Assembly (NCBI GenBank): GCA_027021085.1 | Contig: JALUVB010000217.1 | Span: 1 to 15,081 of the forward strand | From: a bacterium | GTDB lineage: Bacteria; CAIJMQ01; JAADFP01 | Length of the DNA: 15,081 bases | Direction of reading: 5' to 3' | In this document: in pieces, positions 13,365 to 15,081 of the stretch | How the letters are laid out: the number at the start of each line of letters is the position of its first letter | How positions within the stretch are numbered: position 1 is the first letter of the stretch | Position numbers and translations under genes: made by a program | The notes under the pieces: model-generated | Told to the model about the DNA's origin: nothing | What the model saw: the letters and a program-made list of their open reading frames with translations, nothing else | The model's database searches: none

Positions 13365-14015
13365 TCAATCTCCCCGGAAAAGCTTGAACAAAAACCACGT
13401 CCCCAGGATATCCCAGACAGAAACCCCCCTTCTTGCCGGGACCTGCTGCAGTATTTTCCCTGGGTCTTCCCTCTCCTGGTATTCCTGCAACATCTTTAAA
13501 AATTCTTCTACTTCTCTATCTACTTCCAGGGTAAGAGTCAGGGTGAAAACGGGGGAGTCCTTTACCCTTCTGGCAGGATATTTCACTATATCTATAAACT
13601 CTTCCAGCAACCGGAAGACATCTTTTATCGGTCTTTCCAGTATCTGGATAAACAAGGGATAAAGTTTCCAGTAAGCAGGAGAGAATTCCATGTACCGTGC
13701 AGCCCGGTAAATATCTGCCATCTCCTGGAGGGGATAAAGCAGCCAGTCAGTGAACTTATCTGCATCTTCCGGGGTGGAAGAGCGGTTTTGCAGGTAATTG
13801 TTCATCCTGTTTACTCTCTTGCTCATGAGAGAAGTAAACCGGGAGTATTTTCTAAAACAATTACCGATATAAGAGGCCATTGCCTCAGAATTGTTTATAC
13901 ACTGGATGTCTTCTTTCCGGGGAGAGAAAAAGACCTTTCTCTTTATGTAGATAAGTTTCCTTAGCAGAGAATCTGCCAGGAAAACGTAATGGGGAGGAAC
14001 TTTTAACCCAGCCAT
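13365..14015 (-). CDS. Uncharacterised, mostly helical protein
   Basis: A 216-residue protein I cannot assign to a family. It has no signal peptide and is rich in aromatic and charged residues. Predicted long helices include LADSLLRKLIYIKRK (13-27), SYIGNCFRKYSRFTSLMSKR (48-67), DWLLYPLQEMADIYRAARYM (90-109) and DVFRLLEEFIDIVKY (132-146). One likely beta strand, VFTLTLTLEV (156-165), follows, and the hydrophobic end WDILGTWFLFKLF (201-213) might associate with membrane or with a partner. No catalytic motif stands out. Base composition resembles neighbouring coding DNA. GGGGGAG lies about 13 bases before the ATG. It follows the HEPN gene on the same strand after a 223-base gap but has its own promoter, so they need not be one operon. 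Confidence 0.7.
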   Translation of the reverse strand: MAGLKVPPHYVFLADSLLRKLIYIKRKVFFSPRKEDIQCINNSEAMASYIGNCFRKYSRFTSLMSKRVNRMNNYLQNRSSTPEDADKFTDWLLYPLQEMADIYRAARYMEFSPAYWKLYPLFIQILERPIKDVFRLLEEFIDIVKYPARRVKDSPVFTLTLTLEVDREVEEFLKMLQEYQEREDPGKILQQVPARRGVSVWDILGTWFLFKLFRGD

Positions 14016-14035
14016 TCTGAATTCTCTTCTCCCCC

Positions 14036-14062
14036 ATTATAGCATCACTCCATCCTTTGCAA
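14036..14062 (-). promoter_or_regulatory. Extended -10 promoter of the 216-residue protein gene
   Basis: On the minus strand, TGC directly precedes a perfect TATAAT (14036-14041), an extended -10. TTGCAA (14057-14062) is 15 bases upstream, a short but workable spacing for extended -10 promoters. Transcription would start near the GGGGGAG ribosome site, about 15-20 bases before the ATG. Confidence 0.5.
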
Positions 14063-14076
14063 CAGGCAACGTGATT

Positions 14077-14229
14077 ATGCCATTTTCAATGCAGGGGAAA
14101 AGTGCGGGTAAAGAGGCAGCCTTCTGCCTTGCACCAGAGGACACCTTTTTCTTCTTTGCCGGAGAGAACCGGTGGGAATTTAGCGAAATATTGCAAGAAG
14201 AATGGAGCGGAATTTTTAAACAAGGGTAA
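14077..14229 (+). CDS. Doubtful small open frame or gene remnant in the gap between two minus-strand genes
   Basis: The + frame encodes about 50 residues from ATG 14077 (GTG 14071 and ATG 14089 also possible), ending at TAA 14229. It includes AAFCLAPEDTFFFFAGE and ENRWEFSEILQEEWSGIF, whose composition and codon pattern look more like protein than random sequence. The frame has no stop upstream into the antisense of the next gene and no ribosome site. It could be the tail of a decayed gene or chance. The opposite strand is also open here (14037-14252), but with less natural residue use. Confidence 0.2.
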   Translation: MPFSMQGKSAGKEAAFCLAPEDTFFFFAGENRWEFSEILQEEWSGIFKQG

Positions 14230-14238
14230 CTTCCCGAA

Positions 14239-15030
14239 TCAGGCAATGCCAAATTTTATTTTAAAAGCCCTGACAAAATCGAAGTCAGAATCAATTTCCC
14301 GGGGGCTCTTGTAACGCACGGGATGCATAACCACCTTCCGGATTTCATTGAGATGCAAGATATCGGCAAGCAGCCTTTTTCTGTTGGATACTTGTTTGGG
14401 CAGCAGCTTCTGGAAAATCACCCAGTGCTTCTCCATGATGTAGCCCAAGTCCAGGAGGTCTGTGTAATCCCATGCCTCGCTGGGGCTATATTCATCCTCC
14501 TCCCTTCGTTCCTGGCATTTCTGGCGAATCCTGAGAGGCACACCCTTTCGCCACCATCCTGCCTCACCTGGGCCAAATGCCTCCTCCAGGGTCTTCTTGA
14601 TTAAATCATGCAGGTAGATTTCAATGGAACGAATATCCTGGTATAAATCACCGAAAGCTGTAGCGGCATCGTCATGGTAATCTATGAATATAGCTACCTC
14701 AATCCAATCTACATCCAGTCCCCGCCTGCGCAGGCTTCGGACAACCCCCTTAGAAGTTACCTTTTTCCCCTTGTATCTTTTCCGGATGGTTTCCTCTATC
14801 AACTGCCGCTTTTCTTTTGGTATGGAATAGAAAATATCCGACCTTCTGAGCCGACCTTCTCCCACCAGCCGGCGTAAAGTGCGAAGTGTTATCTCTTCTG
14901 ATACTTGGCGAGCCTGGGCAATCCTTGCCGGGTCGTAACCCTGCTTTATTAACTTTGCCACTTCATCGGCGGCTTTCCCTATCTTAATCTCGCAGGCAAG
15001 ATTTTCCGTTTCTTCTACATCCAGCTCCAT
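14239..15030 (-). CDS. HTH-containing protein with C-terminal Swt1-like HEPN domain
   Basis: A 263-residue protein. Residues about 18-66 look like a helix-turn-helix (AADEVAKLIKQGYDPARIAQ then SEEITLRTLRRLVGEGRL), and about 75-115 may be a second winged-helix-like unit. The C-terminal part (about 134-245) matches my knowledge of the Swt1-type HEPN fold: EIYLHDLIKKTLEEAFG, a WW pair, GVPLRIRQKCQERREED, DYTDLLDLGYIMEKHW, and LNEIRKVVMHP. The last holds the R-x4-H motif (Arg231, His236) that forms the RNase site in active HEPN proteins. HEPN proteins are often toxins or effectors in defence, but some are inactive or housekeeping. No antitoxin is identified next to it. The ATG has no ribosome site; a TATAAT lies nine bases upstream. 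Confidence 0.75.
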   Translation of the reverse strand: MELDVEETENLACEIKIGKAADEVAKLIKQGYDPARIAQARQVSEEITLRTLRRLVGEGRLRRSDIFYSIPKEKRQLIEETIRKRYKGKKVTSKGVVRSLRRRGLDVDWIEVAIFIDYHDDAATAFGDLYQDIRSIEIYLHDLIKKTLEEAFGPGEAGWWRKGVPLRIRQKCQERREEDEYSPSEAWDYTDLLDLGYIMEKHWVIFQKLLPKQVSNRKRLLADILHLNEIRKVVMHPVRYKSPREIDSDFDFVRAFKIKFGIA

Positions 15031-15039
15031 TGTGCAACG

Positions 15040-15068
15040 ATTATAAATCTATCCTCGCCCAAATGCAA
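15040..15068 (-). promoter_or_regulatory. Promoter of the HEPN gene, almost touching the start codon
   Basis: On the minus strand: TTGCAT (15063-15068), a 17-base spacer, a perfect TATAAT (15040-15045), then nine bases to the ATG at 15030. Transcription about seven bases past the -10 would leave a leader of about two or three bases, so the mRNA is predicted to be leaderless or nearly so. Confidence 0.65.
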
Positions 15069-15081
15069 ACCCCACCGGATG

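Follow-up and report, generated by a model that had tools for sequence, protein, structure and literature searches.

P0001, a gene near one end of the DNA analysed here, very probably encodes an RNA-cutting protein with a DNA-binding front end, as judged from its predicted domains. We consider it probable that this single polypeptide is a suicide ribonuclease associated with defence: most likely an enzyme that, as a last resort, halts growth or kills the cell. Such enzymes are well known, but the one-protein form has drawn little notice. The window (the whole stretch of DNA that was analysed) is an entire contig of 15,081 bp (C217) from a 1.93-Mb draft genome (G000), and among named relatives the closest is a metagenome bin of Caldisericota (JAADFP010000117.1). 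The original prediction had the feature span 14239-15068; the open reading frame was confirmed at 14239-15030, while position 15068 does not mark the end of the gene, the longer span taking in the promoter. The features discussed below are:

14239..15030, minus strand: coding sequence of P0001, HTH-HEPN protein of 263 aa with an ATG start (open reading frame and translation; 90% identical orthologue in L002)
14680..14976, minus strand: predicted N-terminal HTH_40-like domain (RecQ C-terminus type), residues ~19-117 (sub-threshold Pfam match and model)
14242..14679, minus strand: predicted C-terminal HEPN domain, Swt1/AbiF type, residues 118-263 (PADLOC, sub-threshold Pfam match and model)
14338..14340, minus strand: Arg231 codon, start of the R-x4-H motif (invariant in 12/12 homologues)
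14323..14325, minus strand: His236 codon, end of the R-x4-H motif (invariant in 12/12 homologues)
15064..15069, minus strand: -35-like hexamer TTTGCA (promoter scan; present in L002)
15040..15045, minus strand: -10 hexamer TATAAT, 9 nt before the ATG (promoter scan; identical in L002)

The strongest profile match to the C-terminal half came from PADLOC, where PDC-M34B, from a two-protein candidate anti-phage system, covered residues 118-237 (E = 2.7e-13). Two Pfam families were matched, both narrowly below their curated cut-offs: HEPN_Swt1 (PF18731) over residues 136-236 (25.7 bits against a cut-off of 27.5; E = 1.5e-5) and HTH_40 (PF14493) over residues 23-84 (21.1 bits against 27; E = 3.9e-4). 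Because its score lies under the cut-off, P0001 is a diverged relative of HEPN_Swt1 and not a member by Pfam's rule. No match was obtained in a scan of P0001 against NCBIfam, nor for Abi_2 (PF07751) in Pfam at E <= 1, and a sequence comparison with the PDB returned only spurious ribosomal-protein and generic HTH matches. A PF18731 profile search of the window's own genome also found nothing, but it missed P0001 itself and is thus uninformative on further copies. The predicted domains are nevertheless beyond chance, since the same two-domain order is read in four further genomes.

An AlphaFold2 model of P0001, built from two near-identical sequences, was all helical (pLDDT 72.7, pTM 0.65), with a predicted HEPN helical bundle at residues 118-263. 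Plain Foldseek against the PDB and viral models returned nothing significant. With VIA-align, the bundle aligned best to AbiF and to HEPN-MNT toxins: the top match was the PbAbiF-ncRNA complex 8vz6 (Z 10.6 over 142 residues, 120 to 263, at 3.5 Å), followed by toxins from HEPN-MNT pairs (Z 6.3-7.9); Cas13b and Csm6 ranked lower. Residues 8-123 aligned to the RecQ C-terminal domain 3iuo (Z 7.7, 5.3 Å). Matches that were neither HEPN nor RecQ began at Z 5.7, and all of these values call for caution, as helical bundles reach middling Z by chance; for that reason the model supports the sequence evidence for a HEPN domain and does not stand alone. The Swt1-type HEPN domain originally proposed for the C-terminus thus agrees with both the PDC-M34B match and the alignment to AbiF. 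The proposed N-terminal helix-turn-helix agrees with the HTH_40-like match, with the RecQ alignment and with a relative (L008) in which HTH_40 scores above its cut-off (38.8 bits versus 27).

Profile searches spanned roughly 790 distinct genomes, a small part of known diversity. Besides the orthologue in a sister genome (G001, locus L002; 90% identity), they recovered the HTH-HEPN order in three further, independent lineages outside the genus, one of them decayed: G343 (L032; 210 aa, 44% identity), G549 (L047; 239 aa, 37% identity) and G076 (L008; 30% identity across its intact part). Full-length relatives share 37-45% identity with P0001. More distant matches took in the HEPN part alone: PDC-M34B proteins adjoining DUF5343 genes (L005, L006, L013, L024, L042), a DndB/DGQHR-type fusion (L010), a ParB-like protein (L009) and a Croceicoccus plasmid protein. 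That phages or plasmids carry the complete HTH-HEPN architecture was considered and rejected: phage records and IMG/VR contained no match to it, and the plasmid matches were HEPN-only. The HTH-only matches inspected in other genomes were generic regulators.

An alignment of 12 HEPN domains, drawn from full HTH-HEPN relatives and the more distant HEPN-only matches, contained just four invariant positions: W159, W203, R231 and H236. The Arg231-x4-His236 motif, for which the original prediction had proposed conservation as the test, is encoded at the residues named and retained in all 12 homologues. Between window and sister, P0001 shows dN 0.054 and dS 0.68; the HEPN half is tighter (dN 0.033, dS 0.82, dN/dS 0.04) and the linker, residues 89-120, is the loosest region (dN 0.17, dS 0.65). 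The gene is under strong purifying selection, although such conservation across the genus would also fit a housekeeping role in RNA processing or regulation. The G076 copy (L008 1470-2058) is a decayed HTH-HEPN remnant with a frameshift in a run of A; its tail, now out of frame, reads LNRILNKVMYP against LNEIRKVVMHP in the window, with R replaced by L and H by Y. Sequencing error could account for the frameshift but not for the two catalytic substitutions. Loss of the frame, the R and the H is as expected if the intact protein is costly.

Defence genes neighbour the HTH-HEPN relatives in two other phyla. The G343 gene lies behind HsdR, HsdS and HsdM of a type I restriction-modification (R-M) system and a 446-aa gene; further along the same island, two proteins, one of the MauJ family and one of 224 aa, both contain an R-x4-H string, and an integrase follows. 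The G549 gene begins 73 bp after a DUF499/HmaC ATPase, itself preceded by a DUF1156/HmaB methylase, HerA and SIR2 (the name Hma is given in PMC8565338). The R-x4-H strings beside the relatives read RNAVAH, RNQVLH and RCAMLH (L032 9945-10916 and 11085-11759; L047 10719-11291), and the proteins that carry them are possibly more HEPN-like effectors of the same islands. A sub-threshold match to the whalefall-1 RNA was also observed in the G343 defence island, beside its tyrosine integrase (L032 13389-13464; 30.1 bits, cut-off 37, E = 7e-4). Swt1/Abi2-type HEPN domains fused to DUF499 ATPases are documented in the relevant sections of PMC3710099 and PMC12839542, and are read there as last-resort suicide back-up effectors. 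The HTH-HEPN proteins resemble such an effector in free-standing form. Among the HEPN fusions described in the same sections of PMC3710099, wHTH domains occur in giant proteins and the small HTH_40-HEPN architecture does not feature. The context of the relatives favours restriction-linked defence over a classical or stand-alone toxin-antitoxin module, and points to a reading beyond those first proposed for this gene.

Upstream of P0001, TTTGCA-18-TATAAT scored 10/12 in a promoter scan. Because that scan found two promoter-like sites where three are expected by chance, conservation is the better argument: the sister carries the same elements and spacing, nearly letter for letter. No Shine-Dalgarno match precedes the ATG in either the window or the sister, and 'leaderless', the term originally applied, appears a fair description of the layout of this putative promoter; a Shine-Dalgarno match is likewise missing from several more genes of the window, and leaderless-type expression would thus not be unique to P0001. 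Homology to the sister stops about 40 bp upstream of the ATG and the window itself ends 10 bp further. Since only 51 bp of the contig remain upstream of the ATG, the upstream neighbours of P0001 are not visible in the window. In both L002 and L032, about 0.5 kb of apparently non-coding DNA comes before the gene; in L002 it measures 530 bp, beyond which lies a dapA-like gene, presumably encoding dihydrodipicolinate synthase. A 32-bp inverted repeat upstream of the gene in the sister (L002 9907-9938) was considered as an operator and rejected, as it is dispersed at contig ends of the window's genome and hence not gene-specific. This palindrome (AATATTCTTAAGAATATT-like; C279, C55 and C290 in G000) is probably a small mobile element, or one of REP type, at which the assembly breaks.

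The neighbours of P0001 in the window are housekeeping genes, not defence genes, and run in the order FKBP-type isomerase, the gene for a 216-aa protein (P0002), P0001. P0002 had been suggested as a partner, but that P0001 is a toxin with P0002 as its antitoxin now seems very improbable. The two genes share a strand in the window, with P0002 ~220 bp downstream, and an orthologue of P0002 is retained in the sister region. There, however, the order is kept with 2.6 kb and four other genes between them (a 199-aa ORF, a 227-aa P0002 paralogue, a 128-aa ORF and an RlaP-type nucleotidyltransferase), and neither G343 nor G549 showed a neighbour resembling P0002. P0002 also evolves faster than P0001 (dN/dS 0.10/0.35 between window and sister), matches no family in Pfam or NCBIfam, and is modelled as a generic helical bundle with no informative structural match. 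On synteny, evolutionary rate and predicted fold, P0002 was ruled out: it is not plausible as a conserved antitoxin. Its family is small, with one copy in the window's genome and two, 45% identical, in the sister (window 13365-14114; L002 11352-14101). Since the region upstream of the window's P0002 resembles that of the other sister copy, the DNA separating the two copies has apparently been lost from the window. The RlaP-type gene (L002 12627-13397; RNA-repair family, E = 1e-37) is missing from that place in the window, where no nucleotidyltransferase ORF adjoins P0001 up to the contig end that limits the upstream side. The original observation that there is no obvious cognate antitoxin held: an antitoxin-like partner is not conserved in the sister, G343 or G549, no DUF5343 partner was found in the window's genome, and no such ORF was recognised in L002, L032 or L047. 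Given the position of the contig end, a partner gene beyond 15081 is possible in the window's genome. An R-M link in trans is also possible, because N6 methylase genes, one above its cut-off, lie on other contigs of that genome.

Three other explanations dispense with P0002. It is rather unlikely that P0001 is a self-controlled toxin, whose HTH represses its own promoter such that the RNase rises only under stress, with no separate antitoxin. The compact leaderless-type promoter, nearly identical in the sister, would suit such a circuit, as would the lack of a conserved antitoxin-like partner or a DUF5343 gene in the genome; yet window positions 14900-15081 yielded no inverted repeat of operator type, the upstream palindrome of L002 is a dispersed repeat, and the upstream regions of G343 and G076 show, by eye, no obvious shared site. 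AbiF-like control, with the HEPN protein bound and kept silent by a small RNA encoded upstream, is improbable. In its favour, AbiF is the closest solved fold to the P0001 model and is regulated by an upstream ncRNA (PMC12373285), and the 0.5 kb of apparently non-coding DNA lies before the gene in L002 and L032. Against it, the RF03085 abiF motif was found in none of the window (which ends 51 bp upstream of the ATG), L002, L032 and L033, the homology to the sister ends about 40 bp upstream of the ATG (the window itself stopping 10 bp beyond that), and the gene has a promoter of its own, 9 nt from the ATG, unlike abiF of C. difficile, which shares a transcript with its RNA (PMC12373285). Many HEPN proteins are inactive, according to PMC3710099, and P0001 might be a transcription regulator in which the HEPN fold serves merely for dimerisation or ligand binding. 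The HTH, and the conservation of the gene among housekeeping genes, would fit this reading. We nevertheless doubt it strongly: only four residues are invariant across the 12 aligned homologues, the catalytic R and H among them, and in the G076 copy a broken reading frame goes together with the loss of R and H.

RNases of the HEPN type turn up repeatedly in toxin-antitoxin, abortive infection and CRISPR systems, where a partner protein, small RNA or signalling domain usually holds them in check. Domains with an intact R-x4-6-H motif are established metal-independent RNases, which is the ground for predicting an RNase step in P0001. As a defence-associated suicide ribonuclease, P0001 would dimerise through its Swt1/AbiF-type HEPN domain; R231 and H236 from two chains would then make a metal-independent site predicted to cut cellular or phage RNA. 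The RecQ-C-like HTH would bind nucleic acid, most likely DNA, and either hold the enzyme off or direct it to a trigger, such as DNA that is invading or damaged, or the promoter of its own gene, the RNase being released during infection or DNA stress. In the relatives, the gene would be a back-up effector travelling with DNA-modification defence systems; in the Caldisericota genus, it would be a conserved stand-alone copy with its own leaderless-type promoter. A narrower version, which we put forward only tentatively and think unlikely in full, has the RecQ-type HTH sense foreign or abnormal DNA, or the failure of resident restriction, and directly activate the HEPN domain of the same chain. 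No antitoxin, guide RNA or nucleotide second messenger would then be needed, and P0001 would amount to a minimal guard effector whose gene has come to stand alone in Caldisericota. More broadly, the relatives place a putative DNA-binding module and an intact HEPN site on one chain behind two unrelated DNA-modification defence systems. Such a chain offers a simple, testable model for coupling restriction failure to RNA-level shutdown, and P0001 brings a gene of defence type to a lineage of anaerobes that has received little study.

Several known systems resemble P0001 in part. AbiF/AbiD (Abi_2) RNases act in phage abortive infection, and AbiF is the best solved-structure match to the predicted fold; P0001 differs in having an extra N-terminal HTH and its own leaderless-type promoter, with neither an Abi_2 Pfam match nor a detected abiF ncRNA. 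The type VII toxin-antitoxin pair HEPN-MNT (HepT-MntA) shares the HEPN fold at the lower Z of the model alignment, but a nucleotidyltransferase is not adjacent in the window and the sister alone has one, of RlaP type, 1.8 kb away. PDC-M34, a PADLOC candidate system of a DUF5343 protein A and a Swt1-HEPN protein B, is matched by the HEPN half of P0001 through protein B, with the R-x4-H and WW motifs common to both; P0001 is by contrast a single gene with an HTH on the same chain and no DUF5343 partner found in its genome. Compared with the Swt1/Abi2 HEPN-DUF499 fusions (Ava_2192; type-1 BR / Hma), the HTH-HEPN protein is a separate polypeptide, and the window has no DUF499 or methylase neighbour. 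The two nonetheless share a Swt1-type HEPN domain with an intact motif and a link to an R-M-like system, and the G549 relative sits directly behind the DUF499/HmaC ATPase and DUF1156/HmaB methylase.
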